NCBI GenBank assembly: GCA_014898425.1
Contig: RCSZ01000006.1
Coordinates: 1,736,001 to 1,800,000, forward strand
DNA: 64,000 bases
From: Botryotinia globosa
Lineage: Eukaryota; Ascomycota; Leotiomycetes; Helotiales; Sclerotiniaceae
Reading direction: 5' to 3'
Shown: one piece after another, positions 16,658-56,153 of the stretch
How the letters are laid out: each line of letters starts with the position of its first letter
How positions within the stretch are numbered: position 1 is the stretch's first letter
Translations under genes and position numbers: made by a program
Notes under the pieces: model-generated
Told to the model about the DNA's origin: nothing
Database searches by the model: none
The model's input: the letters and a program-made list of their open reading frames with translations, nothing else

Positions 16658-17749
16658 ATGAACAATCCAAATAATGTGACCTCTGGCCTCTATTGCGAAA
16701 TAAACAGATTCAGATGCTCAAAATGCGAGCATGACGACTACCTCCATAGATACAGATGTGAGAGACATTTGATTGGGGATGCTTATTGTAGAGAAGCGAT
16801 ACCCATGATCACGCCTGATAGGAATGTGTTTTGTAGAGATTGCGCAGAAGAGTAAGTTTAGAGCCTGTTCACGTTTCCTAGATCATGACTAAGAGAGATT
16901 ATCAGCAGTGACGATCTGAATATAAGTAGCCAGGGTCGTATGTCACCGGAACTACCAGCAACTCGATATGTACCGGTCAGCAGTAATATAACACAAGGAG
17001 GAAGGTCGGAAATCCAGCCTCTGCCTACCAATATTTTGCAATCACCGGGCCTTGCCGATCAAAATATGGCATCAGGAGGGTGGAATGAGCCTGGAGGTGT
17101 TCAACTTTCGACGTTAAACCCACAATCCTCAGCTCATGTATCTCCAGACCAAGATCTCGCAATAGCATCAGTAGCGTCTGAGAATGCCCCCTCAGTACCG
17201 CAATCATCAGAGAATAGTAACACAACCACAGCACCACCACCAACACTAGCAACAGAGCCAACACCACCATCAACACCAGCACCGGAACTAACACCACCAC
17301 CAACACCAACACCAGTACCAGGACCAGCACCAAACCCCAACCCATCACCAAACCCCAACCCATCACCCAACCCCAACCCATCACCAAACCCAAACCCATC
17401 ACCAAACCCCAACCCCAGCCCCAACCCAAACCCAAATCCATCACCAAACCCAAACCCATCACCCAACCCCAACCCATCACCAAACCCCAACCCATCACCA
17501 AACCCAAACCCATCACCAAACCCCAACCCCAACCCCAGCCCCAACCCAAACCCAAACCCATCACCAAACCCAAACCCATCACCAAACCCATCACCATCAC
17601 CAAACCCCAACCCCAGCCCCAACCCAAACCCAAATCCATCACCATCACTCGCACCCGCGCCCGCACCTGCACCCACAACAAGACAAATCAGAATCTGGGC
17701 AAGTTTCCGCCGCTGGTGCTGTTGCACATCCGCCGAATCCTCTACCTAA
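16658..17749 (+). CDS. Cys-rich two-exon family protein with a Pro/Asn repeat tail (member A)
   Basis: Exon 1 is 16658-16851 and exon 2 about 16906-17749 (the acceptor could be CAG or CAGCAG), giving 345 residues. Exon 1 encodes a compact module rich in Cys and His: YCEINRFRCSKCEHD, YRCERHLIGDAYC and FCRDCAEE, spacing that suggests zinc binding. The intron falls in phase 2 three residues after the final CxxC. Exon 2 encodes a disordered tail: about 130 Ser/Pro/Thr-rich residues, then a roughly 105-residue run of repeated P-N-P-N-P-S hexads, and a short end with FRRWCCC. No signal peptide. The plan matches the cluster at 33.9-45.7 kb. Function unknown. Confidence 0.7.
17328..17643 (+). repeat. 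In-frame minisatellite coding PNPNPS
   Basis: Repeats of roughly 18 bp built from CCAAACCCCAACCCATCA variants, within the tail of member A. Higher-order copies recur (a PNPNPNPSPNPNPSP block appears several times). All variants keep frame, which suggests either selection on the protein or recent expansion. Confidence 0.9.
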
Positions 17750-33974: not shown

Positions 33975-34706
33975 ATGAATACCCCAAATTCCATCTTCTC
34001 GGGACGCTGCCAGATAAACATTTTCCAATACAGATGTCTCCACAGCGGGCAGGAAAACACTGCAAGATGCAGGAGTCATTTCGACAATCAGCCCTGTATC
34101 CCTGATGTGGTTTATACGGAGGAAGTCAAGGATAGAGATTGCGCAGAATGTGTCATGAGGTTAGTACCCCCTTTCAATTAGGATTTGAGATTCGAGATTT
34201 GATGGTGTGAGATCTGTGGCTAACTGCAGACTGTTAGTAGAGATTCCGGCTATGCTTCCGACGAAATTTACATGAATACTCCCACGAACACTGCCACCAA
34301 ATCATCAGGATCCGATGATAGCAGAGGATTCAAACGATCCAGTCTTTTCCATAAACAGCGAAGTGGTATCAAACACAAATCGACATCAATTGGCACAGGA
34401 GGAGATAAGTTGTCAAGAAGCAAGGATATTAAAACCCACCAATCTAGAGGTGATGAATTGAGGTATAGAAGAGCTATTGTCAAGTCGCGCAGTGAAGGTG
34501 GATACAGAACACCTATGAATCCACCCACGAAGATATCCAAGAAGATACCCAAGAGATCGAGAATGGGTGCAAAAGCACAATTGAAGTCAAAGATGGAGGC
34601 TGAAATGACGGATGAAATGGAATTGGATATGGAGATGCATGGATATGAAGACAAGAACGATGTAGCTGATCTATCTCGCAAGTTGAACTCTCTTACATGC
34701 GATTAG
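33975..34706 (+). CDS. Cys-rich two-exon family protein with a basic tail (member B)
   Basis: Exons 33975-34159 and 34238-34706 give 217 residues. Exon 1 (start MNTPNSIFSGRCQINIF) holds CQINIFQYRC, CRSHFDNQPC and DCAEC, the same Cys order as member A, which also starts MNxPN. The donor GTTAGT is in phase 2, three residues after the CxxC. An earlier possible acceptor (GCAG) gives a stop at once; the one at 34236-34237 opens a long frame. Exon 2 is hydrophilic and disordered, with repeated Lys/Arg clusters (KISKKIPKRSRMGAK), then an acidic Met/Glu segment (MELDMEMHGYEDKND). The basic cluster looks like a nuclear-localisation signal. No known domain recognised; function unknown. Confidence 0.7.
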
Positions 34707-35451
34707 TTGGGATAGCTAATCAGCGCTGGATTGGACTTAACTGAGGTTATCAATTGAAGAAAAGCAGTTTTTTTCAGGGCTTGACGCGCAGCAGGAATTG
34801 TATTTACTCTGATTAGTAGCTAGTTTGCATGTAACAACCGGCATCCCTTAATTATTGGGGAGATTGACATTAAATTATTTAGCATTCAAATCTGATCCGC
34901 TAATCTAATGCCATATTTAGCGCAAACTCTACACACTCTTATTCATTTGGTCGTTTAAATCTTCGGCTATTTTGCTAACCCCCTTCCCACGTCGTGAACA
35001 AAGTCTAAGTGAAATATAGAGTCGTAATTTCAAGCAACACAGTGTATTCCTCAATAGCTTATATATTGGTAATTTACCCACAACAAATGCATATTCAAAA
35101 CTCATGGGGGAATCTGTCCCTTTTTCATGACATTTCATCACCAACATGATATTTTGGCTTCCTTCGGCTCTTTCGCTTACTAATGATGATATATTCTAAA
35201 ACTTTCGTTGTTGTGGGTATTTGTGACTGGCTACTTGCTAGATGTTTGATGAATCATGTTTCGAATAACTTTTATGACTTGGGGTTACAAATTTTGTGAG
35301 AAGAGTTGCATAGCCCTCTGTCATCGAAGCTCATTCAACGTTTCAAACGCCATTATGCGACAGAATGAAGAATACTCAACGAGTCAGATTAGGCAGAGTT
35401 ATAAAGTAAAAGTACCTAAATTATGCCATCTGTTACGGAAATTCCTGGAAA
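34707..35451. other. Convergent intergenic region in the Cys-rich cluster
   Basis: Between members B and C. Short open frames at 34929-35147 (minus) and 35256-35474 (plus) resemble nothing known. Confidence 0.4.
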
Positions 35452-35938
35452 TCAAGAATTTGTCTCGTCCTTAAACCTTGACCTCCATCTCATGTTTACC
35501 ATCTTCTCTTTGAGTCCCAATATTTCTTTCGGTGTTGCCCTAATTGACAGTGGTATTCTTGGTTCGCAGATGAGTGCTGTACTTTTTTGACCCATTTCTC
35601 TTTTCGGGGCGTCTCGGGCCCTTTCTCTCATTATTTCTAAATCTGGATACTCCAGAGGGAAAACGTCCCCGTTAGTCCTAGTTCTCAGATCCAACCAGAA
35701 GAATTATTGAATTCTCTTACTTTCTTTGGCAATCAGGACAATCGTAATTCTTGATCTCTCCAGTTTCAACGCGTCTGATGCAACAGCAGGACCAAGGAGT
35801 GAACACATGTCTGGCACATTTGTAGAGATCTTGATCCTTACCGGGATCTCCGCATCTGTACTTAAACCAGTATGAAGTGCATTGTAGAGGTTGAGGAGGT
35901 ACATTTTGCGCATTTTGGTTTGAGTAGTTGGTACTCAT
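35452..35938 (-). CDS. Cys-rich two-exon family protein (member C), tail uncertain
   Basis: Exon 1 is 35721-35938 and codes CTSYWFKYRCGDPGKDQ, CARHVFTPWSC and YDCPDCQRK, the family order with an extra CC. The donor GTAAGA is again phase 2, soon after CxxC. Two tails are possible. An acceptor at 35678 (43-bp intron) gives a second exon 35452-35677 ending RWRSRFKDETNS. A better placed acceptor, with a CTAAC branch point, at about 35648 gives a basic tail starting KFRNNERKGPRRPEKRNG that hits TAG after about 34 residues, although the same frame stays open beyond it for about 24 residues more. The gene may be intact or recently broken in its tail. Confidence 0.55.
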
Positions 35939-36834
35939 CCTGGATATGATTCGTAAGAGTAGCCATTGCTAAAACCCTCAGGTTTCGCAGAGTATATACT
36001 ATCATTCTCAAAGGGTATATCGAAATAAATGAGCCTATTCCATGTCAATGGTTATGTTTGTTTGAGGAAAGTATTACTTTGTGTGTCAAAGATATCTGTC
36101 AACTCTATTCTGCGAGATATTTCGAGCTTAAACCGTATTCAATCCCATTAATCCAATGGAAAAGAAAGTGTATGACAACTACTGATATAGATATGTGTAA
36201 TATGCTTCTTTGTATGTTGAGCACGACAATAGTAGTTGGATGGCTCGAAACTTCGATCATTGTAATGATGGCACTCCAAAAGAACAAGTGTTTGCATGAT
36301 GAGGATTAAAACTTCAGCTTAGATCGTTTATGAGTTACGTCGGTAGAAAGTTCACGATGAGCAGAGCCAATCCTACGCGATATGAAAGCTTCTAGGTTAA
36401 GAATCTCCTGGCAGGATTGATGCAATTTATCATAAACTTGGTGAATGAGTACACCTGTTTTTGTCATGTACTTCTATGAAATAGATCAAAGAAAGACGTT
36501 GGAAGAAATGACCAGTATATGCTTGATGACTGTCGGTGAACTTTAGAGATTTTCACACTTCGCATAATCTTCACGGTCGTATTGGCATCGACCCAAAGAA
36601 TGTATGGAAAAAAAAGGTGAATTGTTGGTAATCACATATCTTGTCAATAGAAAAAGCTAATTGTCCGGTTTATAGATTTGTGGGTAATTTCCTATAAGGG
36701 GGAGTGAAAGGGTATGGCTCAACAAGATAATACTGAGTATTTTTTGTATTGTTATATTTCTAAGTCAACGATCACCTTTGAATCTAGATTTTGCAAGGAT
36801 TCTACTTTGATATAGTCGGATATTCATACATATT
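35939..36834. other. Intergenic region in the Cys-rich cluster
   Basis: Apart from the short frame at 36148-36297 described separately, nothing recognised. Confidence 0.4.
36148..36297 (-). pseudogene. Possible degenerate Cys-rich family exon 1
   Basis: A 49-residue frame begins MQTLVLLECHHYNDR and continues NYYCRAQHTKKH then SSCHTLSFPLD. The spacing C, then YYCRAQH, then C recalls the family, but the final CxxC and the phase-2 donor are missing. The weakest of the family calls. Confidence 0.2.
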
Positions 36835-37140
36835 TTATAGTTCGATGTTCATTGTTTTAGAGTTGATGACGTTATAGTTATTGAAGAGAGAAATCAGATG
36901 AACCAATGAACTATTTAACAGCCATCCCTCAATGAAGTCGAACAGATTGACTGTATATAATGAATTTACCATCGACAGAAATCCTAAAAGAATCGCAATG
37001 ATTGTGGCGAGTGATTGACATGTTCTGCGGTAGATCCTACCAATCTTTCCTTTCCAATGTGATAGCGTAACATGCTCGTTCCTGGTCAATGGCGTGTAGA
37101 GCATCTTTTGGTTTGCTATCTTCATTTCCATTCGTGTCAT
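36835..37140 (-). CDS. Small open frame with one hydrophobic segment
   Basis: 101 residues starting MTRMEMKIANQKML with a single likely membrane span (SLATIIAILLGFLSMVNSLY). It lies just downstream of the HET gene on the same strand. An alternative frame from 37143 is also open for about 35 residues. No family recognised; may be untranslated. Confidence 0.2.
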   Translation of the reverse strand: MTRMEMKIANQKMLYTPLTRNEHVTLSHWKGKIGRIYRRTCQSLATIIAILLGFLSMVNSLYTVNLFDFIEGWLLNSSLVHLISLFNNYNVINSKTMNIEL

Positions 37141-37244
37141 TCATAGTTCTAGAGATCAAAGAAACCTCGTATAGTACAGAAGTAAATTCAGATGAAATCC
37201 CAATTAAGAAAGGTTATTTATGTAGGATTCGATACTCCGAGTTC

Positions 37245-39340
37245 TCATACCAGCTTGAAAGACAAATCCTGAGCGAACGTGAGTGGTGTCTCAGCTTCAA
37301 GTATGCTGCAGACCCCAATTCTTATAATTTCAATCTCTTTCGTTGTTACTTCTAAAGGTGTGCATATCAAAAAATGTAGCCAGGAAGTTTTTTGGTTGGT
37401 CTTTTCATCTGTGTGGTATCTTCTTGCTACTAGTAAACAGTATATTTCAGTACCGTTTGCAACAGAGCAGGTTTCATCAACTGTCACAACACATGGAGGC
37501 ACATCCAAGTTGACTTTGAAATTTCGGTTATAGTCACACTTGAAGACAAGTCTGGGTCTGATGGAACCACCAGAGTGCTTTCGTTCCTTGTACACGATGG
37601 CAGGTATAGATAGACATTGGATGTTGATATAACCTGTGCCTTGCATATTGTGCCATTCACTAGCTGTATATGGTATATTGGTCCCCAAATATTTGAAGTT
37701 CTCGTGGGGTGTGAGCACTTGGCCTGGGTGAAACACAATTGAGGTGGTGAAAGTACCGACGCCTTGAATCAGAGAAGCCCAGGACCAAGTGGGGGCAAAA
37801 GGCTTTTTAATTCGTCTTAGATCCATTCTTTCTCTCATATAAGGGCTTCCAGTAATATCCCACAACAAGCCGTTTGCAATATCAGAACTCCATAGTCCAG
37901 CTAGATACCCACAATTGACTTTCCTCTGGAATTGGGTTGCGATTCCAATAAGCGCAATCAACCGGTCTGATTCCCTGGTGATCAACAATTTCGAATACTC
38001 TCTGACCAATTCATTCCATTCATTGAATATTTCGTAAGCTTCAGGTCTTAAGCTATCTTGATCCTTCGAATTGCTACCTGAACCATCATTCATTCTTTCA
38101 AGAATTGCGCATTCGCAACGGAGACCTGATTTACATTCCATTACGAGTTCGGAAGGATGGAAATGTAAAGTTCGCGGTGCTAATTTTCGTTCCTGAAAGA
38201 CCCAAGCTCGAGACAAAAGAGGGGTATTTATCTCATCTAACACGTCTGTGCCAGAGCTTACGCGACTATTGTAACGGTGATGGACTGACTCAAATGAAGG
38301 GCGGAGTCGAATTCCCCAATCGATATTCCTGTATTGATCGGTGATGGGGTGTGACTTTGTTCCAAGTGTGAATGACAGTTGTTTCAAACATCTTATCTTA
38401 AGACATCCACCCTTACTATCTCTTGCACCTGTTGCAGCGATATTCAAATAGCTGTTAGAATAGATGGCAGCCATGCATGCTGACTCGCGTTTCCAGTCCG
38501 CATCATCATCTTGAACTATACAGAGACTATCTATCCATACAAACTGAATCCTAAGAGCTTGAAGTACTTTTATTGATTCGCGGAAGGTTTTAGGCAAAAC
38601 CCTTAGTCGTATTCCCTTTTTATGTTTGCTTAAAGAATTCTTAGTTGTTTTTAGAAGCTGGACTTTCCCCCAACAGTGACTAAGTGTCGCATAATGTGTA
38701 ATGGCTGATTTTGACTCCGAGCTGTTGTTTCCATGAACCTCCACAAGAATGATTGCATTGTGAGCTCTTTTTCTTATATCAAGTAGCCTTGATGGAAGGG
38801 CTTGTTCCTCTGCTGCTTTGATACAACAAGAGCTGTGCTCATTCTCGCATTCTTTTATCCATCTATCAATGCTAGATTTGCATTTCTTTATCGATAATTT
38901 TGGAGGCACTTCTTCGGATATGCCAAAGGATTTTATCCAAGGATTGTTGGTATCAGTTCCCTGACATGCATCTAGTAACACTGTGAATAAAAGCTTGGCA
39001 TGAGAATTCTGTGTGCCCTACCTCTTTTGGAAAAGTACTCGAAGCGTAGCAAGTTCTTGAGTTCCAATATCAGTGGAAACCCTTCACGAAGAATTAAAGT
39101 TCCCCCTTCTTTCACATCTATCCGATGATTTCTAGTCGAATACTTCTTCTCGATCAAGCATATGCCACTTTGAATAACCGAGCAACTGGAACAATGAATT
39201 CCAGTAGAATTTCCAAATTGGGCACTTTCAAAAGCCAGACGATATTCACAAGCACAATCATCTGTGATGTGAATCTTCCAGTTGATCAATCCACCTTCGG
39301 AGCCAGGATTTAAGTCAAAACATACTTCACAATCAGGCAT
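37245..39340 (-). CDS. HET-domain (heterokaryon incompatibility) protein
   Basis: Exons 39022-39340 and 37245-38980 give 684 residues. Fungal HET domains act in nonself recognition between mycelia and trigger a cell-death response; specificity usually comes from other regions or partners. Exon 1 is Cys-containing (MPDCEVCFDLNPGSEGG, HCSSC). The HET domain lies at about residues 200-350: YATLSHCWG, LPKTFRESIKVLQALRI, FVWIDSLCIVQDDDADW and AAIYSNSYLNIAATGARD, all canonical, followed by SRAWVFQERKLAPRTLHF. No NACHT or other C-terminal domain is visible. The 41-bp intron is very short but keeps phase 1. The gene sits inside the Cys-rich cluster, with members B and C to its left and E to H to its right. 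Confidence 0.88.
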
Positions 39341-40187
39341 ATTGACGCGAAGTTATCTAGACTGATTGATGAAAATCGAGGAAAATCGATGTTTTTATTG
39401 GGGCCTTATGGGAGCAATAAAACAACTCGGCGACAAGCCTTATGAGTCGCTTCATATATGGCAACATACTCGAAACACCATTCAACTGAGAACTACATCA
39501 CGAGTTCAATGGATACACGTTGGTATCCTTCTAGGAGTCCATAATGCTGTGCAACTGGTTGTCCACGTCATCTGCGTGTTACCACATATCTCTTTTCTTC
39601 TTTTTTTAAAGCCTTGCCCTTTTTTGGATTTTGTATGAAAATTTTGGAAACGAGATCTGATGAATTGCCTCAACCTCTTTTGTCTGATGTCAATAAAATC
39701 AAGTAGATCACTGATAAATTTCATCGTCGAATCAAAGAAACGGCTTCGGCATGACAGAATCCAACAAGCTCTCGTTTATTGAAGGATAGATTGAGTGTTC
39801 CTGTGAATACTTGACTGTGTATTCCCAACCTGGGAGTTCATGCGGCAGTATTAGTATCACTGTGACACTATTTCTCGAAAATTGCTTCTTTTTCACGATT
39901 ATTGCTGCTATATTATAGACATCGCTATTATTCTTTCATATGCATGTAAGATCTTGGGAATTTGCAAGTTTCGTTAGTGTAACAAGCAACAAACGTTTTT
40001 TATTTACTCTCTGACTTTCAATTTTTGAAAAGCACTGAATGCGTTGTGATCAGCCACAAATTCTGATTAACAAAACTCCTTCAAAACCTGAATGAATTCA
40101 TGCCCTGTGTCTCTTCAACGATTGATGTGTGCACAAAACTAAAGCCTGAAGTGAAACCAACTGAATAATCACGATTTCATTCTCTTT
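39341..40187. other. Intergenic region, promoter side of the HET gene
   Basis: No supportable gene. The frames at 39366-39638 and 39506-39724 overlap on opposite strands and resemble nothing known. Confidence 0.4.
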
Positions 40188-40652
40188 TCACCTATTTTTT
40201 TTCGGCCCTTTGTATTTCCGACGCTTCTTCTTGTCACGATCGAAAGGTGCAAGTGCTCTACTCTTCTTCTGTTTTCTCCTCTTATTAGGGTGTTTATTAC
40301 GAAATCCAGGAGGATGTTTTAAAGATCTACAATGTTATTAGTCCATATAACTTTTGAATCAAAAAAGTTCGAACACATACTTCCTCCTACGTATGGCCAA
40401 ACAACCATAACACATTTCTATCGCCAATTGTGCGCGATAATATTGAGTGTAACGTTTTCTACAATGATAATTGGTACCTTCATGCACATTACACCAGGAG
40501 TAATAACGCACATCGGCTCTCTTGTTACATTCATTGCAGACATAGACTATGGCTCGACAATATCGACGCCCGTTCTCCAACAAGGCGCATATGGTGATCC
40601 ACGCCAATCTTGTGACCTCGGGTTCAAGAAAATCTTGGGGATTAGAAACCAT
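40188..40652 (-). CDS. Cys-rich two-exon family protein with an NLS-like tail (member E)
   Basis: Exons 40381-40652 and 40188-40326 give 136 residues. Exon 1 holds YCRAIVYVCNECNKRAD, WCNVHEGTNYHC and MCYGC in the family order, with a longer N-terminal extension (start MVSNPQDFLEPEVTRLAW). The intron (54 bp, GTATGT to TGTAG) is phase 2, seven residues after CxxC. Exon 2 is short and extremely basic (HPNKRRKQKKSRALAPFD, then KKKRRKYKGPKKNR), a strong nuclear- or nucleolar-localisation candidate. No signal peptide. Function unknown. Confidence 0.7.
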
Positions 40653-41537
40653 TTTTAGTCGTGCGAACTATGAGTGCGCGATGCTTGTGACTGTTATGGG
40701 ATAAAGTTTGTTGATGGGATGGCAACCTGTGTTTTGAGAACACTTTTGTGGCGTTGCGATGGGCTGACATTTATATATATGAATCAGAGGACTTCTAGTA
40801 TCTTCTCATCTGTCTTTCCCATTACAAGATGAGCTGAAAGACTTGATTAAGAAGACATCCCAGCTTCTCACATTTGAGGTCTTCTTGAAGTGCACAAGAG
40901 AGCTTTAAACTTATACAGGAAAGGGCGTGATTGTTTAAATTGCTTCTGCTCTTCGAAATCACATCTTTGAAGTATCATATTTTCAAAGTAAATTTGCTTC
41001 GGGTCTGTCTGAGGGAGTGAGTTTGTTTTTATGGTAGAAATTTGTCTTATAAAAATCTTTCATATCTCCTGCTTGAATTTCTTTCTGTGGAAATAATCCA
41101 ATGCTTGAGTTTATCTACAAAGCTTCCAATGTTCCAGGGCCCGCAAGAACATTACTCTGCCGGGAGTTCTGGGCAAGTTTTTTGCATACTCTACCATTCT
41201 ATAATAGACGTTATGCATAATTGTATCATCTGATCTGAGGCATTCCAACACAAGGAAAGAAGGAACTGGAAAGACATAAGTATACGACCGCTTCCTCTTG
41301 GTGAATAGAGGGGGAGGGGGGAATTGAAAGAGATAAAGGTAAGGAGAGAGAATGGATATCAGTGATTTAATTCTTGGATCTGGCAGCTTCTATAGAATAT
41401 GTACGGGACACCAAGCTATATATTTCTCCACGAAATTTGCTCTCAAATAAAAATATTACGTCAAGTTTCTGAATCCTTATCTGTCGTCATCCCTACCAAA
41501 TTCACACAAACTTATTCCCAGATATCTGAACTAGACA
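40653..41537. other. Divergent intergenic region, members E and F
   Basis: Presumed promoters of both genes. No other feature recognised. Confidence 0.4.
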
Positions 41538-41994
41538 ATGTGTAGTTTTGAGATCATAATTTGCTCAGCCAAGGATCCGCATTGGATAAAGCTCGATGCA
41601 ATTAACCTGTGTGCACGAGCACGGTTAAATTTCATTCCCTGCAGCATCTACTCAGCAGGTGAAGGAAATCTTCGAAGACTTGCTCTTCGGACGTATCCTG
41701 AGCCTTGCCGTAAATGTCATCCCAATATAGAGCAAGACGTGTAAGTATTTCTAATACCTAGATAACAGTGTTCACATTCATTCTTCAGCTCACTACAGCT
41801 AACTCACGCAATACAGAAAGGAAGCAATGTCTACTCCTATCGGGACAATTCTCAGTGATCAAGAGACCATTTCTCAATCCCAGACGACGGTCAACGATAT
41901 TAGTCATGAAACAAATAGAAAGCTCTGTTTGGAAGATAGTCCTGCTTCAGATAAACTGCGTGATAGGCGAGGTGATATGGATGGCGGATGCTAG
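41538..41994 (+). CDS. Cys-rich two-exon family protein, divergent (member F)
   Basis: Exons 41538-41740 and 41817-41994 give 126 residues. Start MCSFEIIICSAKDPHWIKLD; Cys continue as LCARARLNFIPC and CRKC. The His positions of other members are lost, so metal binding is less sure. The donor GTAAGT is phase 2, ten residues after CRKC. The chosen acceptor (ATACAG, 15 bases after CTAAC) opens a polar acidic tail with DQETISQSQTT and ending DRRGDMDGGC; the two earlier acceptors stop quickly. The tail has no strong basic cluster. Function unknown. Confidence 0.55.
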
Positions 41995-43337
41995 TTACCG
42001 CGCTCTTGTGATTTAGGGGCGATGATGTCATTTATTCGGGATCTAGCACTGATACTTCCTCTTTCATATCGATATGTGTCAGGATAGTATTTGCAATTAA
42101 GTCTCAAAGTATTAATTTGGCGCAAAATACGGGGAGACATTGGTGTGACTGGAGTTTGAGATGTAGTCGAGGTATTTTGATATTTTCAGCTTGGTTTGCT
42201 GTGCGAAATGTTCAAAAGTCAGCAATAGTTAATCGAAGCATGACATTCTAGTTTGCTCGATCAACCTGTTGATGCGGGCGGCCAGAAGATTTACGAAATT
42301 ACGTCAAGGGGGTTTGTTGTCCACCCTCTAAACATTCCAGGTGTTACAATTGCCCAAGTCACCTCCCTTTTACAACTGCTTCTCATAAACTCGATCAGAA
42401 TGGTGTTACGTACAATTTAAATGTCATATCGGTTGCTACGTTCTTTGATCATCACGCCAAATGAGGCGCTCCCGTGCCATATGAAGATTGCACAATCAAC
42501 GCCATGGTAGGAAGCTATCAAGCGCGTGTCGGAGTATAAGCTAAAAAGTATCTCAGAGCCGGTGATTCAATGCAGGTGGCTGACAATGGAGGAGTAGATA
42601 TACAGTCACATATTGAATAGTTAGATCAACATGAATCATAGTAACGCTAGCATTAGACAAAGAACTTTTATTGAATTTGTACAAAAACCTGTGACCGGAA
42701 TGAAAGTGTTTCTAAACCAACTAAGAAAAGTCCATGCAAGCGTCCTGACTTAGATCAGCTCTCAGGAACAAATTTCCAAAGAGATATCAAACACCCTTCA
42801 ATTTTACGCAACTCTCTAATAAAGGTGTGAGGAAAATGATACCCATTTGGAGTATTATTGTGCCAAATTTTAGTCCCTTATTTAGCTCCGTTTATTCCTA
42901 ACAGAAATTATTCCACTGTGACCACCATCAGATGATGTCTCATGATATTTCCACAGGGTTAAGTCTGATAGTAATGAGAGTTCAAAATATTTGATTGCTA
43001 ATAAAAATCCCATTGAATGAAATCACTCTTGAGACATCTAATTGGACTAACAAACATTAGAGTAAGCTGAAAGCCAGTTTTTCCATTTGAGGTTCGTTCT
43101 CAAACAATACTACATGAGAGTATAAGGCACTTTACAAGAATTCAAAGCATCTTTTTCTACTTTTTCTCTTTTAGTGTACGATCGACGAAGAATTTCTTGG
43201 AGATTAGCTAGCCCAATTGTCCCAGAATTTATCTTTGTCGAAATTGCTACACATAAGCATTGCTTCTTCTTCTATAATTTGGCCCAAAGTTTTGGTTCTC
43301 ATCCAATTTTCTCTTGAAATCCGACGTCTAATTGGAA
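41995..43337. other. 1.3-kb intergenic region in the Cys-rich cluster
   Basis: No gene supported on either strand; only very short open frames. Promoter of member G on its right. Confidence 0.4.
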
Positions 43338-44025
43338 ATGTGTATCTACTACATTGAGACTTGTCTTGAAGGCCACGAATGTTCTCTCGTTTTCACCAAG
43401 GCCTGTAATTATGCAAACAGTTGCAGACCGCTCAGATATTGTGACATCGAAGAAGTAAGAACTGGCAATGTACGGAAAAGCAAGAACGCGAGAGAATATT
43501 GTAGGATTTGCGAAGTAGATAAGTAAGTAGTGATATCCGCTCATTTATCGTTCTACGAGTATGTCAGGTACCAGCTCTTCTTTGAGGTGCCGGAGGAAAC
43601 CATGAATCGCTTCGCGAGTCTTGATGCAATTCAGCGTGTATCACTAATAAGACGTGGTTAGGTTATGGGACGCTCAAGAAGACGCTGCCGAGGCCGCGAC
43701 CGTTATCAACGAGGAAGACGAGGAAAAAGAAGTTGAAGAAGAGGAGCCGACGATAGCGTTGAAGAAAGAGGAAGCATATGAACAGAAGAATGAGAAAAAG
43801 GAGGAAACAGACAAACTAGACCAATGTACATTGACTCAGAGTGGGCGTCCCCAAGCTCCGACCGCAGCAAGACGCGGTAGGAGCACTGGAAGGGGCTTCA
43901 AAAGTTCGATGCCGGCGAATAATACCCCAACAAAACGTGGACATGGTCAAAATGAGAACTTTGGAGAAAAAATCCCAACTGCCAAAAAGCAAAGAACAAA
44001 TCAGTCAAGAAAATCAATGGGCTGA
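43338..44025 (+). CDS. Cys-rich two-exon family protein with an acidic/basic tail (member G)
   Basis: Exons 43338-43522 and 43662-44025 give 182 residues. Exon 1: MCIYYIETCLEGHECSLVF, KACNYANSCRPLRYC, and YCRICEVDK before a phase-2 GTAAGT donor. It is the nearest relative of member H (MC, YY, C-x2-GH, AC, YC, CxxC at matching places). The 139-bp intron contains a CACTAATAA branch-like site before TTAG. The exon 2 tail begins acidic (EEDEEKEVEEEEPT), then becomes basic with KKEEAYEQKNEKKEE, ARRGRSTGRG and a final TAKKQRTNQSRKS. This acid-then-base layout is shared with member H. Function unknown; nuclear location is inference. Confidence 0.7.
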
Positions 44026-44998
44026 TATCATGGGCGGTAGTGGTCGGAGTAAACTGAGAAAAGACGAGGTTCACTTGATACAAAGATAGACTTCGAATAT
44101 GGGTGGCTCTATTGGGTCAGCTTAGAAGAATGATTTGACTGCGTACAAATAAGAGAATCTTCTCGCGTCTTTAATATTGTTTAAATTGAGACATATCGCA
44201 CATAATAATTAAAGCTTTTGAATAAAAATAATCCGTAGAACTGAATAAGTGAAAGATTCCCAACACCTCATGGCGAACCACTTTATAGTTATCAACATTT
44301 TCGTGTAGAACTCCAACTTCCGAAATTGGATTCCACTATCATTTTGAAACTCTTGCTAACAGCGTTTTAATAACAGCAGCTTTCTGGTTTTCTATGCAAA
44401 GTTCAGAATTTTTCTCCCGAAGGGCTTCTCGGGAAATCAAATAAAGAAAGTAGAAGATGTGAAGATGTGAAGATACTGGATTGATTCTTGTTTCATTGAT
44501 TGTATATCATCACTCTTTGGTGCCGCGGGATAAAAAGAAAGCCAGATGCTGAGTGAATCCATTCAGATACTGTCATGCACGTTCAAAGAACCTGTTGGTC
44601 CTATCAACAGATAACAATGTCGCATGTCTCATTTCATTCAACGCTATCTAAGTCAGAGTGTTCAGAGTAGCAATTTTATAGTGATTCTTGAGCTGGATTT
44701 CTATTATTAAAGAGATTTTCTTTCAAATGATACTACAAGAAACAGGACTTCCTCCAGAACTTTCATATTAATCTGTAATGTTTCTTCTAGTTGCTTTATT
44801 TAGGGTCTGCTCAATAGAGGATTATATTATAAACGTTCTTGCTTCCGATCTCGTTCAGGGGTTTTGACAAAGCTCGTTCGAGCCATTTTTTTCTTTGTGA
44901 AGATTTGAATATATAGCTACAATGTTTAGGCTCTCGTATCCACTTGATTCCAAGATATGTAATTTTCAATTAAGGCAATCAAACAGTTTTAAACAGCG
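44026..44998. other. Intergenic region, promoter side of member H
   Basis: A TATA-like AATATATAG lies at about 44907-44915. An upstream ATG at 44922 opens a 64-residue frame that overlaps the start of member H out of frame, so a leader intron or leaky scanning would be needed. No other gene. Confidence 0.4.
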
Positions 44999-45718
44999 AT
45001 GTGTGTCTACTACACCGATTTATGCCCTTGGGGCCATAGCATTCTTGTTCACACCACTGCCTGCCGACGAGCACATCAAGAAGGAAAATACTGCGAACAC
45101 AATGAGCAAACAATAAATAATAGGCCCCAGCGGAAATTGAGGCCAGCGGAGTCATGTCCCGTATGCCATGATTTGTAAGTAACTGTCTTCTATTACCTCC
45201 AGCACTCAGGAATTTTGATAACCCCGGATCCCACGATAGTGGCTTAAACAAGCTCCATCTTTATTCATAATACGGCAATATTGACTAAATTTAGAAGGTA
45301 CCCAGCTGCGAGACCAGGAGAGGATCAAAATGATGGTGGCGGTGACAATGGTAGAGACGACGACGACGACGAAGACGACAAGGATGATGATGAGGATGAC
45401 AATAGTGGCAAGGGGAGAAGAAAAAACGAGCGAACAGGATTTTTTAAGCCGAGTTCTCTACCTACGATGCGAGGAGGGAAGCGTAAGCGCTTCCCAAAGA
45501 TTATTCCGCCAAGAAAGAGAGCTACACGCATTATAAGAAGGAGTGAGCCAGGCCATCAAGAGGACGTCTCGAAAAACGCACTCTCAGGACAAGCAAAAGG
45601 AAGACAACAATACCCACTGCGTCCCAAGATACTGGAGATGAATTCAATAATAAAGGCCGAGAAAGTGACAAGGGATAGATCTTCGAGAGATGAATATGAA
45701 GAGGAAGAGGAATTCTGA
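44999..45718 (+). CDS. Cys-rich two-exon family protein with an acidic/basic tail (member H)
   Basis: Exons 44999-45174 and 45295-45718 give 199 residues. The first exon is only 58 complete codons and so is easily missed: MCVYYTDLCPWGHSILVHTT, ACRRAHQEGKYC, and ESCPVCHDL before a phase-2 GTAAGT donor. It matches member G position by position. The exon 2 tail is first very acidic (DDDDDEDDKDDDEDD), then strongly basic (GGKRKRFPKIIPPRKRATRI), and ends EEEEEF. The acceptor at 45293-45294 (TTTAG) is weakly placed, only a few bases after CTAAA, but gives the only long frame. Likely zinc-binding module plus disordered charged tail; function unknown. Confidence 0.68.
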
Positions 45719-47294: not shown

Positions 47295-48410
47295 TCAATA
47301 TTGTTTGAAGTCGCCCTTCGGTCGTGAACTTCGGTGCTTTCGTCTCTTCTCACCTCTCACTATCTGTCGTGTTTCGGGTTGAATCTGGATATCCTCTGGA
47401 GCTTCGAGTTTCTCGTCTTCATTGTCTTCCAATGAAATAGGAGCATTAGGACTAATGTTTCCCCTTCCAAGAACTATTGGGGGTGGCTCTTTTCTCGGCA
47501 TTACCATACTCCCTACCCAGGTTAACGCATGCTGCCATAGTGCCGGTGGCTTTGGTAAAGTAGCAATATTGCCCACATTTGACATTTCGAACAAGTCGGA
47601 AGGAACATCTTTCATCGTAGGGAGATTTAACCAGACATATTCTTTCGAGTTATGAATATGTCCACGGACGGTCAAAGGGTAGAGTTCTTCTGGAAAGACG
47701 AAAGCCGTTCTAACAACCATGGGTCTATACGCAGGGATCAGGAGATGAAAACGTGCATTAATCCTTGATCTCTCAAGTCGTTTCCGCATAAATAACATCC
47801 AAGTACACAGGGCGTGAAGATTCTCGGACATGCCGACAAAATTACTTGGCACCGGCTTATTTTGGACGATGTCGTGGAACTCGCCGTGCCAATCTGTATC
47901 TGGGTGATAAAGAAAATAGAGATGCTCCTCATCACCACCATAGACACTCGCTGCCTCTTTCCGGATATATTTGTCAACATGCTTCGCGAATTTGTCAGGG
48001 GCAGCAAGTCCTGTCTGTGCTTCGAGTTCGCCATAAATTTTTAACCCGATTTCTTCAAGACCTGACGAACCCTGCAGTACCTCCATGAAAGCAGCGACAA
48101 CATTCGCCCCCACCAGGAAGGTTTGAAACAAATCCAACCAGTTCTTGTTCTTTAAATATCGGTTCATCCCTGAAGCAAATGTTTGCACCTCCGGCACAAC
48201 GGATTCCAGCTGATTCCTAAGCGCTGCCCCATTTTGATATGTTGTGTAACCTTCTGATAGATTCTTGACAACGCTCGAAACTTCGGTCAAGACTCCAGGA
48301 AATCGAAAGATCTGCTCGAGATGCATCGGTGCTATGGACGTTTGATTCGACGGTGATCTCGATGATCCTTTCTTAGGCGCTGCGACAGCGAAGAGCTTTT
48401 CGAGACCCAT
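47295..48410 (-). CDS. Uncharacterised fungal protein, 371 residues
   Basis: Single exon, start MGLEKLFAVAAPKKGSSRSP. The N-terminal third is helical (VVKNLSEGYTTYQNGAALRN, QTFLVGANVVAAFMEVLQG). The centre has HLYFLYHPDTDWHGEFHDIV and NLHALCTWMLFMRKRLER, then a beta-rich part (RFHLLIPAYRPMVVRTAFVF). The FLYHPDTDW text is familiar to me from unannotated ascomycete proteins, but I know no function. The C-terminus is charged and disordered, ending in a basic GEKRRKHRSSRPKG. No signal peptide, and no membrane span beyond a moderately hydrophobic LVGANVVAAFMEVL. Intact, uninterrupted frame. A TATA-like ATATATATG lies about 195 bp upstream (near 48606). Confidence 0.65.
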   Translation of the reverse strand: MGLEKLFAVAAPKKGSSRSPSNQTSIAPMHLEQIFRFPGVLTEVSSVVKNLSEGYTTYQNGAALRNQLESVVPEVQTFASGMNRYLKNKNWLDLFQTFLVGANVVAAFMEVLQGSSGLEEIGLKIYGELEAQTGLAAPDKFAKHVDKYIRKEAASVYGGDEEHLYFLYHPDTDWHGEFHDIVQNKPVPSNFVGMSENLHALCTWMLFMRKRLERSRINARFHLLIPAYRPMVVRTAFVFPEELYPLTVRGHIHNSKEYVWLNLPTMKDVPSDLFEMSNVGNIATLPKPPALWQHALTWVGSMVMPRKEPPPIVLGRGNISPNAPISLEDNEDEKLEAPEDIQIQPETRQIVRGEKRRKHRSSRPKGDFKQY

Positions 48411-51400
48411 TTCGTAATGTCTTATGCGTTACTGTACTGCTTTGTGGCCTGTCTATCTCGAGAAAAGTTTTTTTCTGTGAATGAATGGACGCAGAGAGGG
48501 ACAGGGCGTAGTAGGTGTATTGAGGGGGAGATGCGAAAAAATACTGTTCTAATGTCAATATCAGGTCGGCTCTTTGTGACTAATAAGACTCACATCAACC
48601 TCCAGGGCAGATATATATGTATGTAGCGTACGCAAAGAAATGAAATGAGAGAGGAAGAAGTAGTAGAACTAATGTTCCCCTCTGTTATCAAGAGTCATCA
48701 GGTAATCAATCATGTTGCGGTGAGAGCTTCCGAGGTTCTAATGAGTGATATAAAAGTTTGACGGCGGATGATGTTTTTTCGAGATGGATTGCTTTCTCAC
48801 AACATTGATAGATGATTCTAAAGATTGCAGATAACGCGCCCCTCATTCACTTATCAGCAGCATTAATCTTATTATGTGAATCACATACATATTTACGATT
48901 TATGCAAACATGAGCAATTGGACTTGTCAAAATGGGGCTGTCGACGATGGGCCCGCTGTCAACGTAGCTGGCGGTGAGTGGTGAAAAAGTTTATCTAGGA
49001 CTATTTAGGCTTAGCGAGTGTTTCCGATTCTCAATGTGTGGGGTGCTATCATTTTCAACTCTATAGGCTTGAGAACCTTGGAGCAACGCGACTTGCCACG
49101 ACTAACAAATCGGCATACAACACGACTTTGACAATTGAAACAATCAAATTTACCAGTATGGGTTTCTATAGGTTCTTCAACCCCATCATCGCTGGACACT
49201 CAAATGATAGCGTCCAGGTATGTCTCCTTGCTTGGTATCAGAGCTCAAGGATAGCGGAGACGATAGACTACAACATTGTTCTGGTATCAAGTCCGTAGCT
49301 TTCAGAGAGTCTCATGATGCATTTTTTCCTGGGCAGGAGGGGCTATTTTGAAAAGTTGAGAACACAATGTGGCTATGCTATTTGTCTCCTAACACAACTA
49401 TAATCGCCACCCTATGATTGGCCTGCTATTGAAGCTGAATACGTGAATTTCAAAGATACATCGATTGGTTTTTAGGCTCACAGTTACAAATTCATGTGGA
49501 TATGCTCGCTTCGGATAGACTGTTCTCGACGTCGAAGCTACGAATGTGGAAATCTAATACAAACTCACATCGGAATGATATAGTTAAGGTCGAATTTTAC
49601 TTCAATTGTGTTTCCCCGGCCAGCCTCCTAAGGTGTAAGCTGGGTAACCCGGACAAGATCCCTTCAATCGAGCTAGGTTCAAATGAAGAGCTATTGATGT
49701 TCGGATGTCTAGTTGAGTCGTTGGAACACTCTTGTCTAAACTCTGGTGAGAAATTCCAACGCGAATATAACCTACAACCCGTACCATAGTTTCGAATTCT
49801 CTGCTCTGGCAGAGTATTTCATCAAACAAATCAAATAGAGCAATCCGCTCTTTATTTTAGAGACATTGTGTTCTTGACTACAGCTGTTCCGATAACCCCC
49901 AGAGTCTTGTTGAGGTTCAGACTCACATAGCTTCCTATTATTTATTTGACTGCAATAAGTGACATCGCGACAAACCATTCATATTGCTGTCGGAAATTAC
50001 TTGTAGCAATGAATAGAGAGAAAATACGAAACCCATGGAAACCTACATCGGCTTGGTTCGAATAACAAAACGCTTCTTATCTTTGACCACGACACGACAA
50101 TTTTGAATTGTTTCTTGACAAATTTATCCATCATGCAATTATAATGTTACAAACACCTGGAAAGATGGATTTATACTTTCCCCTGTACCACAACTTTTGT
50201 CCTATTCGTTTTGATTCTTATGATGACATCTTTGGTTCCCCCCGCTCTCACACTCGATATGGCGGCTTTCAAAGTAACAAAAAAAACACGAAATAATCTT
50301 TTCAACCTTTTGTATATGTAGTACGCATAATCGCCAACTTGATGCTTATCAACTCGTGTGCGGATTCATGTCTTGACATCATGCGATGCTCGGGTAAAGA
50401 AGTGAAAATGAAGTCGATATCTGTATGATTCACAAACATCAGCATAATGTCTTATGCTGTAACCTGGACTCTTCGAACTTCAGAAGTGGTCTTTGCCAGA
50501 GGTAGTGGGATTATAAGGGAGTTTCTACTTATGTTTATCACAGGCACAATGACTGGAGAACAAGGTGAGTAATGCAAATCAAGATGATAGTTTGTTTCCG
50601 AATCACAAAATGTGAATCTTAAAGCTCGAATAGAACATTGAAGCTTTGATGTTCGATGTTGATCTGAGCAATTCCTGTGGTGGCAGAATCAATATTCGAG
50701 ACGAAGAGAAATTCAATATAACTTCCTATTCCAAAAAAATTACATGTATATTATGATATTAATAATATATTTGTTATTGACGATATACTTTATTTGTTAA
50801 TGATGAGTCGAATTAGAATTTTTTGCGATCCGTTTATTATTAAATTTTAATAGAAAAAAAGAAAATAAGGGTTTTAGAAGGCCTTAGGGATTTTCAGATC
50901 TCTGAATATTAGAGTTGGGAAAGGCGGACGAAGGTATCGAGTGTATGAATTAGGAAGAGATCAAAGAGGTGAATTATTAGAACTAAGAAGGAGGAGGGGG
51001 GGGAATAAGTGGGAGAGTTAAAGGGTGGGTGGAAGATATTAGCCGAAAGCTTAAAGGGGGGTTTGTTCATTTTACTTTCGATTCATTTTTTAATTAGAAG
51101 CTTTATTATTATACCATACAGTACATAATGTATTGTATAAATAGCAATTTTGAATAACTTTAATATATATATGTATATTTATATTTCATTGATTATTAAT
51201 CGAATTCAAGAAATAAGCTTTCAATTTAACTTTCGAAATTCAAGGAGTTAATTTAGATTTTATTGATTAAAATAAGCTTTGTAATATATAGATTTTTAAA
51301 TTAATCATTTTAATTTATCAAAAATAAACCTTTCAATATATAATTGATTATCTAAGATTTTATTATGGTTGACGAAGTGATGGTTTTGTCAACTACGGAT

Positions 51401-52008: not shown

Positions 52009-55000
52009 CTATACTGAAGCTTCCGCAATTGTCCTTCTTAATCCGTCGATAACTTCTGCACTTTGGTCACCTGCTAGATATCTCCTTTGCAGCTTTTGTC
52101 CTTTTTGGCTCATGGCACGTTTCAACTGCAACGCCTCAGGAACATCAAATGCTCTGATAGGCTCCTCTTTACCAATCTCTACTAGAAATTCTCGTTGTAA
52201 CTCGAGCGGCTATGAGCAATTGAGGTGTTTCCAGCTGTATAGACGCATTGTCACGTAGATTGCGGCGTGCATTATCCGACCAAAGTTCTATCCCATAAGC
52301 CTCGCCCAGAATCCGCAAAACCGTTAGAATATTCTCTTTCGGGTTGACTTCAGCACAGTCGACAAGACCATTCTTGCTATCCATGCCAAGCTCCTCGTTC
52401 AAAGCTTCCCGAATGCGCAGAAGTAACAGGCTGCATTGGCGTGTAAGCTTAATATACGGTATTTCGACTCTGGCGATGATTTGCGGTAACTAAATCCTCA
52501 TCTCTGCAAGTATCTCAAGAGGAGTTCCCTGGCGAGCCTTGGCTTTCTTGTTGACATCGTTGATACGGCCATGCTTTTGAGCTTGTATGAGTAGAGTATC
52601 AGCAGTGATTGGGTTCTCGAGGTAGCTCATCAACGCGCCAGAAAATTCAGTAGTCTTGAGCATGCTTTTTGTACCCTTGACAACATTGACGCTTAAGTTC
52701 TTTGAGCTTGAAGCTGAGCGACAATTTGGTGCAAATGCGCTGGCTGGAACACCCAACTTCATGATGAATCGACTGATGATTTGCTTGTGCGTGGTGGGTA
52801 GAATGTCATTGAAGAGATGCTTCAGTTGAGATTCAATTGCACCATCCAATACGGTCCAGTTACTTTAAATAAAACCATCTTGTTTGGGCGCATTGTAAAG
52901 ATTTGCAACAACGAAAAATTATGTGAACGTGTTGCAAAGGTCAACACCTTCCTTTTCCATCTTGATGGCAATTCTGAACCATTCGAGCCCACAGTAAATC
53001 GGATTATGGTTGTAGTAGAATGCTCAATCTTTTGAAGGCCAGATGGTTTCAGGCTGTAGTTGTTTGAACTCTCTGAAGAGTGGGTGATGTTCTTGGATCT
53101 TATTTGCCGTGTCCCGCAAGTTCCTACTTTTTATGGCCACTAAGGAATTTTCCTTGGCAGTTTATTGAATCAATTGAGAAAGATTTATTGCTCGTTGCGT
53201 CGTTTCCGGTGTGATCCAATCCTTATCTAGTTCTTTGATACTATTCTGAACCCCATGCTTGGTTGTAGCGTCGAAGCGGATTCCTAGAGTGTGTGATGCA
53301 ATAGATGCCTTCAGACGCAAGCTTTCGTACGACTTACCAGCGCCGTTGCCCAAAACCTTCAAAATTTCCATGAGAGCTCTAGCTCCAAATACGACAGAGA
53401 CTCTAATATTGCCAGTTTTATTGGTAGACATGGGACTCTTCGTGAATTCGTCTTCAAATGGTGATGAGATTATTCGTTCAACGATACGTCTCTGCTCTTT
53501 CACTTCTTCGCTAATTTGTATCTCATGATGATAATTCAAGAAAGTCTTGTTCGTGATTTCGAGTAAGATTTGAGAAAGCAATAGGTCCTCATTCTTCCAA
53601 TCATCAATGGCGGAGGCTGTGACTGGCATGATATGCTGACCCGTTTGTTGGTAGGCCAAATCGTTTGCAGATAACAGAGTGCTGATAGGTATGACACACT
53701 GTGCGCCATCGCTTTGAGTCTGTCCGTATTGAAGATACTTCGATAGAATACGAAAAATGGGGTAGTACACAAACTCGTCGGAAGTGGATCTCTTCGACTT
53801 GTTGTCTTGTTGCTCCAACTTTTGATTGACGTAGTTGACTTCGTGTAGGATTTCCGCAATCTTAATATAAGATGGAATGACACCGAAAAATTCTGCGTGG
53901 CTTGAGGTAAGCTCATCTTCAATCTGACGAGCAAGACTTATAAAGCCAGGTTAGACACAAGAGAAGCGGTTATGGCGTCCAGTTCTTCCTTCACAACCAA
54001 TTTCCATGTCTCTTTCAAAAACTCCTGTATGCGTTATAAATCCTCAAAGAAACAAAAGACGACAAATTCTAAATCTATCTTATCCTCAATTTCCATCTGA
54101 CATATATTCAGATGTTTCTTCGTTTTAGATTTGGACGCATTGATGATGTCATCAGTCGTGATATCGGGGTTTTCCGCACCAACATCTTCAACCTCCAACA
54201 TGTCATAGATGTTTGTGCTATGAGCTGCGCTGCTGCCTAGTATTTGAGAATCAGAACTAGAGCCAGTGCCTTTCTCTTTTTTAGTACAAGGCTCAAGTGT
54301 TGCAAGTGCCCTTTCAAGTATTGCGATGAAATACGCATGTGTACGGTTGGACTTATCAGCGTTCTGGTCAGTCTTGGTGTTACGAAACCACTGTATGTTC
54401 AATTAGCATGACGTCATATTCAAGATAAATATTCTTCGCTTGAAGTTGGGTATTCTAAGAGCCTGTTCAAATCGATTTTTTTAATTATTGCCAAAATGAG
54501 TTTAGTAGATTTGTTGACTAATAATTTAGTTTATATTTATTGATATTAATATTAGATTTTTAAACTTATAAAATGTAAAGTAATATATATTAATCAAATG
54601 CTAATCAAAGCTTTATTATAGACTTGATAGATTTATTATACAAATTTTCAAATTTATTGATCAATATAATATAGCTTTTTATAATTCAATATCAATGTTC
54701 AATAAAACACTTTTATTTATTTATATTATTAATATAAATTGTTGATTAATATTTGCATTCGATAAATATCTATTTAGACTACAATTGTTATCAATATCAC
54801 CTAAAAAAATCGATCCGAATGGGCCCTTACACTGGCACAGCGTGTTCGTGCTCTTATCGCACGCTCCAAGGTGTTCCAAATATTCTTTGGCATTTCCATA
54901 GGCGGCTTCTTATGTTTTGCGACAATTTCTGCCTGCAGCAACATCTCTTTCGTTGAGATGTACCTCAATTTAGTTTGTAGAATTGGTGTCGAATCGACTG

Positions 55001-55193
55001 CAGCTTTCTTTGCTTCTTTTCTTGCCTTCGCCTTGAGTCTAGTGCTTGGTTGCGGTAACTGCGGCTTGGGAGTTTCGTCATCATACCCCGGATTGTATCC
55101 ACAAGTCTCCGCAGTATTCAACAACCATGTTGCAAATACATTGGTATCTTCCCTGTAGCGTCGGTAGCTTCCAGCTAGATTACTGGGTAACAT
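52009..55193 (-). pseudogene. DUF6604-type protein, broken by stops and frameshifts
   Basis: Exon 1 (54831-55193) starts MLPSNLAGSYRRYREDTNVF with STRLKAKARKEAKKAA, TKEMLLQAEIVAKHKKPP and ends RAIRARTRCAS. It splices to WFRNTKTDQNADKSNRTHAY at 54390. This N-terminus resembles fungal DUF6604 proteins (large proteins of unknown function). Lesions: TAA at 54034-54036 inside an otherwise continuing frame; a one-base shift near 53940; TAA at 53162-53164, TGA at 53024-53026, TAA at 52919-52921 and 52865-52867; TAG at 52490-52492; another shift near 52195. Coding-like sequence resumes after each, to a final TAG at 52009. The first intron (440 bp) holds MITE copy 2. Confidence 0.75.
54459..54826. mobile_element. 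MITE, copy 2, inside an intron
   Basis: 368 bp, related to the element at 8116-8504: right end CGATCCGAATGGGCCC, left end GAGCCTGTTCAAATCGA (decayed), and shared internal sequence (TTTAGTAGATTTG and beyond). Flanks are TAA on the left and TTA on the right, so the 3-bp duplication is imperfect. On the minus strand it begins four bases into the intron, so the donor reads GTAA plus the element's first G. Confidence 0.85.
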
Positions 55194-56153
55194 TATTGAT
55201 CTAAGTATAAAGAGAATAATCGTTCTCAGATGTGTTGATGTGAAGCTAAAATATGCTATCAAACAGAGTGTGTCAAATACATTATCGTAAACTTAATCGA
55301 TGGAAGTGGGCTGGACTAAGATAGCCCGAGCCTTACAGTAGACCCCATGTCTCGGAAATTGGATGGCATACACCGAAAGGATGTTAGTGGTCAATAATGT
55401 TCACATGGCAACACGAGTGATTATCAGTTATTCACTCCAGTAAAAAACAGTATTCATTATATATTGTTTTGTTTTTGAGATATCCTATAAAAAAGTGAGG
55501 ATTATTTTTGATTTGAAGTAAAATGATAATTTGTTATAGGTTCTTTATATACAAAAAGCTATTATCAATGAGATTAAGTTGTAATAGACTTGATTCAACG
55601 AGCAGTTGAAGGGGTTAAACAGTCAATATTTATACTCGCACTTACAAACAAAACAAGTGATTGATAACACTGCAAACAATGGTTAGTTTTACTCATGTAG
55701 CACACCAGTTGTACCTTGGCACCCCGGGTGATAGGTCAAGCGATTTTTGAACAAAGCTTGTTCGAAGCGAGATTCAAGAATACTTTTCGAACCAACTCAT
55801 TAAAGCTCTCAATTGCCTGAAAAGCTATCATTTTGATGGACCGCTAAACTCTAGTTAATAGCACGAAATCAGTGTTGCGCTGGCCGAACTCAAAAAGATC
55901 AAACAGAAAGCGAGTGATATATTATTAGTAGAAATCTAGTTGTAGAACGCCCAAAACAACCCAAAAGTTCAGGCTGCTCAAAACAAAACTGGCCCCTGAA
56001 AGTGTCTTCCCGTGAAGTCAATTAAGCGAAGACCTATCGAACCCAATCGAGAGGCTAAACCCCTAGACTCTACATCTCGAGTGTGTTCTGCGGGTACATT
56101 TTATTCATCATACCCGCTCGTCCAGGCATCCCATTCATTTTCCAAGCCTGACA
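55194..56153. other. Intergenic region upstream of the DUF6604 pseudogene
   Basis: No gene seen. Contains AT-rich stretches around 55440-55620. Confidence 0.4.

Follow-up and report, generated by a model that had tools for sequence, protein, structure and literature searches.

A cluster of two-exon genes with a shared Cys/His module and paralogue-specific tails in Botryotinia globosa

Results

Seven two-exon genes share one architecture

The DNA analysed, hereafter the window, is a 64,000-nucleotide stretch of Botryotinia globosa (contig RCSZ01000006.1, positions 1736001-1800000; gene coordinates count from window position 1) that carries a group of short genes, each encoding a Cys/His module in its first exon and a tail in its second. 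Seven such genes were rebuilt from the window DNA, with A at 16658 and B, C, E, F, G and H within 33975-45718 (Table 1). After splicing, each of the seven models formed one open frame with a single stop at its end, and the gene coordinates, exon sizes, Cys spacing and intron phase proposed in an initial annotation of this DNA were found to be right. Three models were identical letter for letter to database proteins: B to EAF00_004991 (the 217-residue product obtained with the acceptor AG at 34237), F to EAF00_004993 and H to EAF00_004995, listed as a hypothetical protein of Botryotinia globosa.

Exon 1 comprised 58-90 complete codons in the seven genes, and the introns, 54-139 bases long, were all in phase 2. 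Donor sites read GTAAGT in A, F, G and H, GTTAGT in B, GTAAGA in C and GTATGT in E. As the initial annotation had claimed, the intron began soon after the last Cys in every gene, the distance being 2 residues in A, B, C and H, 3 in G, 6 in E and 7 in F. All seven modules had the pattern C-x2-[HA]-x(5-8)-C upstream of a final C-x2-C, and they had in common a core of six Cys in which one place is taken by His or Ala. The same pattern arose in 1.3-4.3% of shuffled heads, a figure that overstates significance because the pattern was derived from these same genes.

Two observations on database proteins concerned the predicted junctions. Directly after the B module, 0 to 2 extra residues were present depending on the species, as different predicted acceptors would give. 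The protein P0023 was identical to the Botrytis cinerea orthologue of E (P0017) up to a Lys, after which the sequences differed; this point coincides with the intron position of gene E, as expected if P0023 had been translated through an intron there. We considered P0023 as a spliced transcript and rejected it, since its sequence runs into the intron.

The cluster is non-random

The rarity of this architecture was assessed with a scanner whose settings were picked with the seven genes already known. A candidate needed an ATG-initiated frame 45-110 codons long that contained six or more Cys and had a C-x2-C no further than 12 residues from the donor, together with a branch-like site, an acceptor and 15 or more in-frame residues of exon 2. 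Across 264 kb, made up of the window and 100 kb to either side, the scanner returned eight donors, namely those of the seven genes and a low-complexity match at 12924. The 200 kb of flanks gave none, nor did ten first-order random sequences, and reducing the Cys minimum to five added no further matches. Four 10-kb stretches elsewhere (contigs C1-C4, 40 kb in all) contained one donor, which was in phase 1 and unrelated. For F and H, the acceptors chosen by the scanner differed from those of the database proteins. The cluster is thus real and non-random, and the clustering described in the initial annotation, with six genes in 12 kb, was borne out by the empty flanks.

Orthologues so far come from the genus, with neighbouring locus numbers

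Three protein searches (E up to 10), which returned 4 of 4, 20 of 172 and 25 of 388 candidates scored in overlapping sets, yielded 29 different proteins. All but P0023 were labelled Botrytis or Botryotinia, and these spanned 15 species. Assigned by best-matching module, the 29 proteins comprised 3 of type A, 11 of B, 4 of E, 7 of F and 4 of H, and outside B. globosa orthologues that agree in both module and tail numbered 3 for A, 10 for B, 3 for E, 6 for F and 3 for H. The initial annotation had named a profile search across Pezizomycotina as a test that could refute such a family; the search returned Botrytis/Botryotinia proteins and P0023 alone, but it requires shared five-residue words and is no real test of absence elsewhere. 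Its negatives are weak, one profile search having missed H even with the H module as a query row.

Members also had locus numbers close together in several genomes: B, F and H of B. globosa (004991, 004993, 004995), A, B and F of B. fragariae (008356, 008361, 008364) and A, B and F of B. byssoidea (001882, 001887, 001889). Two members had nearby numbers in B. convoluta (A, B), B. porri (B, H), B. tulipae (E, H) and B. sinoallii, B. cinerea and B. calthae (B, F in each). Nine species thus carried at least two members at nearby locus numbers, from which we infer that the cluster is older than their split. Among the papers listed by searches of an open-licence collection, outside which most subscription journals lie, none named the family in its title or the opening of its abstract. 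So far it has been seen in Botrytis/Botryotinia only and would be, on present sequence matches, a genus-level orphan family; therein lies its novelty, rather than in a demonstrated new mechanism.

Modules form two groups of relatives

Profile comparison of the modules, with E-values given for one comparison each, linked A with B (E 2.3e-6), B with C (5.6e-5) and G with H (1.1e-6); grouped profiles linked GH with F (3.9e-4) and ABC with GH (0.0029). Compared in this way, the modules fall into an A-B-C group and a G-H group, with F attached more weakly, and a link between the two groups is suggested. Homologous neighbours, which define a tandem duplicate family, are accordingly found in A-B-C and G-H and less strongly in F. 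The initial annotation had treated all seven genes as one family, a view that stands by sequence for these two groups, more weakly for F, and is thin for E. Single-protein searches of the own genome reach close relatives only: the queries H and A recovered their own genes, and G recovered its own gene plus H (E 0.005).

Tails differ between paralogues and are stable between orthologues

The 21 pairs of paralogue tails were compared with windowed shuffles and none stood clearly above them; the lowest shuffle counts reaching the observed value were 11 of 200 (A-E) and 15 of 200 (B-G). By eye the tails of G and H seemed plausibly homologous, but this was rejected, since 36 of 200 windowed shuffles scored as high. 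Orthologues gave a different picture. The 26 orthologues outside B. globosa were each compared with the B. globosa protein, leaving 25 after exclusion of P0023, which reads into the intron. Identities, computed with gap columns set aside (88-127 such columns in A), were 0.55-0.96 for tails and 0.56-0.98 for modules. The tail was less conserved than the module in 19 of the 25 (A 3/3, B 10/10, F 4/6, H 2/3) and more conserved in six (E 3/3, two F and one H). Tails are thus usually somewhat faster than modules, and slower in E, yet not hypervariable: of the description given in the initial annotation, dissimilarity between paralogues stands and hypervariability does not.

In all 28 proteins with a tail (P0023 excluded), module and tail had their best match in the same paralogue, with tail scores of 164-802 for that paralogue against 25-55 for the next best. 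This constancy does not bear out the proposal in the initial annotation that module and tail evolve separately. Second copies of the tails were sought in the own genome using whole B, C, E and F, the tails of G and H, and the tail of A minus its repeat part as queries. In these word-limited searches the best other matches were at E 0.09 (G), 0.17 (H), 0.54 (A, non-repeat part) and 0.69 (F, spanning the junction), and no other tail match was listed for B, C or E. Stable module-tail pairs, together with the lack of a good second tail copy in these searches, speak for copies that duplicated and then diverged rather than for shuffling, at any rate after the species split.

The tail of gene A contains a long Pro/Asn/Ser repeat at 17300-17690, whose Pro-rich part is shorter in P0005, P0006 and P0024, and a WCCC cluster at 17700-17749 that these three orthologues also have. 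The WCCC cluster could be lipid-anchored or serve as a membrane anchor.

Domains and predicted properties

None of the seven exon-1 modules had a Pfam match above cut-off, in line with the expected absence of annotatable domains. Below threshold, A matched PF23477 zf_Tbcl_2, a treble-clef family (11.5 bits over 10 residues, cut-off 27), and G matched PF25543 zf-CCCH_tandem (14.8 bits, cut-off 24); these zinc-finger families are likewise short Cys/His-rich modules with paired Cys, but the matches remain sub-threshold. Four exon-2 frames gave sub-threshold Pfam matches or none. Among the members of three alignments, zinc-finger models were matched at E up to 1 by 0 of 14, 1 of 12 (zf-CCCH_tandem, E 0.03) and 0 of 5, and by E-value the best Pfam matches were scattered (TrAA12, E 0.0045, in 1 of 12; GlutR_dimer, 0.016, in 1 of 14; none in the five). 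Six proteins had no NCBIfam match, and the three alignment profiles had no relevant match among solved structures, the sole one (E 0.21) lying in the tail. In their N-terminal MC, second Cys, His and final C-x2-C, F, G and H resemble short proteins of other Pezizomycotina of the form MC...C-x-G-H...C...C-x2-C, none of which came up in our searches. An artificial probe of this form had no match in the own genome, a result that counts neither for nor against such a class.

Conserved Cys and His in fixed spacing were common to all seven modules, a spacing that does not by itself prove zinc binding. As a hint of the signal peptide expected of a secreted Cys-rich effector, N-terminal hydropathy was scanned; it was low in five of the seven proteins, with values of 1.68 for E (residue 13) and 1.33 for F (residue 1). 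Lysine/arginine (K/R) clusters fitting one simple nuclear-signal pattern were present in B, E, G and H and lacking in A, C and F, which makes the nuclear role put forward in the initial annotation a weak proposal. Taken together, the Cys/His spacing, the low N-terminal hydropathy and the charged, disorder-type tails suggest intracellular, zinc-stabilised modules whose disordered tails would steer location.

Neighbouring genes

Between C and E lies gene D, which encodes a HET domain (Pfam HET, E 4.3e-30). Its first exon does contain Cys, and D was considered as an eighth member and rejected on the phase 1 of its first intron. In B. globosa the interval 34707-41537, from EAF00_004991 (B) to EAF00_004993 (F), leaves at most one annotated gene for C, D and E if the numbering is consecutive. 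On the same condition, at least two of these three genes seemingly have no locus number, which suggests that the annotation omits short two-exon genes. Other frames of the window matched PRP1_N with TPR (splicing-factor type), a deaminase, ATG7 and, weakly, PPR, and minus-strand frames at 47295-48428 and 54801-55292 matched DUF6579 and DUF6604.

Table 1. Features of the seven two-exon gene models and of gene D, in window coordinates. Introns are predicted.
Feature	Position	Strand	Remarks
Gene A exon 1	16658..16851	+	Cys/His module, 7 Cys, 3 His; orthologues P0005, P0006, P0024
Gene A intron	16852..16905	+	Phase 2, 54 bases
Gene A exon 2	16906..17749	+	Pro/Asn/Ser repeat tail, WCCC cluster near end
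Gene B exon 1	33975..34159	+	Cys/His module
Gene B intron	34160..34237	+	Phase 2, 78 bases
Gene B exon 2	34238..34706	+	Charged tail, 156 residues
Gene C exon 1	35721..35938	-	Cys/His module, related to B
Gene C intron	35643..35720	-	Phase 2, 78 bases; acceptor 6 bases further on fits too
Gene C exon 2	35540..35642	-	Basic tail, 34 residues
Gene D	37245..39340	-	HET-domain gene within cluster, non-member; first intron phase 1
Gene E exon 1	40381..40652	-	Cys/His module; orthologues P0014, P0017, P0018
Gene E intron	40327..40380	-	Phase 2, 54 bases
Gene E exon 2	40188..40326	-	Short, very basic tail
Gene F exon 1	41538..41740	+	Cys/His module
Gene F intron	41741..41816	+	Phase 2, 76 bases
Gene F exon 2	41817..41994	+	Mildly acidic tail
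Gene G exon 1	43338..43522	+	Cys/His module; H is nearest relative
Gene G intron	43523..43661	+	Phase 2, 139 bases
Gene G exon 2	43662..44025	+	Tail acidic, then basic
Gene H exon 1	44999..45174	+	Cys/His module
Gene H intron	45175..45294	+	Phase 2, 120 bases
Gene H exon 2	45295..45718	+	Tail acidic, then basic

Discussion

The genes described here are probably a lineage-restricted family of tandem duplicates in Botrytis/Botryotinia, with one inherited intron position and a disordered tail particular to each copy. On this reading, the first exon of an ancestral two-exon gene would have encoded a compact Cys/His module and the second a disordered tail, and several duplications would have occurred before the sampled species separated. 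In the copies the spacing of Cys and His would have been retained, as would the phase-2 intron shortly past the C-x2-C. The less constrained tails may have changed until those of different copies were no longer recognisably alike, and thereafter have remained with their own modules across species. We infer that the module would be folded by zinc held by the conserved Cys and His and might bind a partner or a nucleic acid, and that the charged tail, K/R-rich in B, C and E and partly so in G and H, could set location and charge contacts, with A perhaps lipid-anchored.

Several observations weigh against this reading. The profile of the E module had its best single link at 0.012 (E-G) and its best group link at 0.076, and the E orthologue P0018 matched G by BLAST over 27 residues at E 0.005 in a seven-sequence comparison only; membership of E draws mainly on spacing, intron and location, and its likeness to the others could be convergent. 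Splicing at the seven phase-2 introns is predicted from the models and their splice signals, and the database proteins are probably gene predictions themselves: one Botrytis genome paper, B. globosa not being among its species, used MAKER and ab initio predictors for annotation (PMC6417074). No orthologue of C or G was among the 29 proteins from the word-based searches. P0004, an H orthologue, has no His at position 13, where the other three H proteins keep it. AlphaFold2 gave no confident fold for H (mean predicted local distance difference test score, pLDDT, 47.5; predicted template modelling score, pTM, 0.20) or for B (38.4 and 0.12). The fairly hydrophobic N-terminal stretches of E and F make an intracellular location less sure for these two proteins.

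The position of E, whose module is not well linked by profile to any of the others, speaks for the view that unrelated Cys-rich genes converged on a zinc-binding spacing and became neighbours by chance, and the A-B-C and F-G-H modules are themselves linked only at E 0.003-0.022, counted for one comparison each. Convergence would not account for the same phase and nearly the same intron position in all seven genes, or for six of them lying within 12 kb beside 200 kb of flanks with no match, and we regard it as unlikely. The missing C and G orthologues, like the room for at most one annotated gene between B and F if the numbering is consecutive, would be accounted for if certain models, chiefly C and G, were decayed copies or chance frames instead of functional genes. 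Both models nevertheless show the complete spacing, a single open frame and good splice signals, and their profiles match those of B and H; moreover, the missing orthologues count for little after a search that overlooked H. Decay is in our judgement quite unlikely.

Exon shuffling, in which one Cys module exon would have acquired, by way of its phase-2 intron, different tail exons that already existed, would explain the strict phase and near-constant position of the intron and the unrelated paralogue tails, and in Tetrahymena leucine-rich repeat (LRR) genes phase-2 introns go with exon shuffling (PMC6564038). Those genes are also young and duplicated, with uniform phase-2 introns; their exons, however, are internal, repeated and shuffled (PMC6564038), whereas here a single intron precedes the terminal exon and the module-tail pairs are stable. 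The constant pairing in 28 proteins and the lack of a good second tail copy, within the reach of a word-limited search, leave shuffling very unlikely. An equally slight probability attaches to the idea that the locus acts as a gene factory, in which a portable exon for a zinc-binding module with a fixed phase-2 donor captures or creates disordered tails that later become fixed in the genus. Such gains of tails would predate the sampled species, and the present stability of the tails is thus compatible with this idea; if it were true, each copy would acquire a new partner or location. The HET-domain gene between C and E raises the further thought of an allorecognition locus in which the Cys-rich proteins act with it. 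HET genes are common in such fungi, the evidence for joint action is one of position, and the intron phase of the HET gene differs; of all the readings, this is the one to which we give least credence.

The seven genes make up a small linked family that has no named domain, and for five of them orthologues are present in other species of the genus. For the biology of grey mould this adds conserved genes of unknown role, which nothing links to disease. The divergence of duplicate tails on one retained module could, in this family, be dated species by species.

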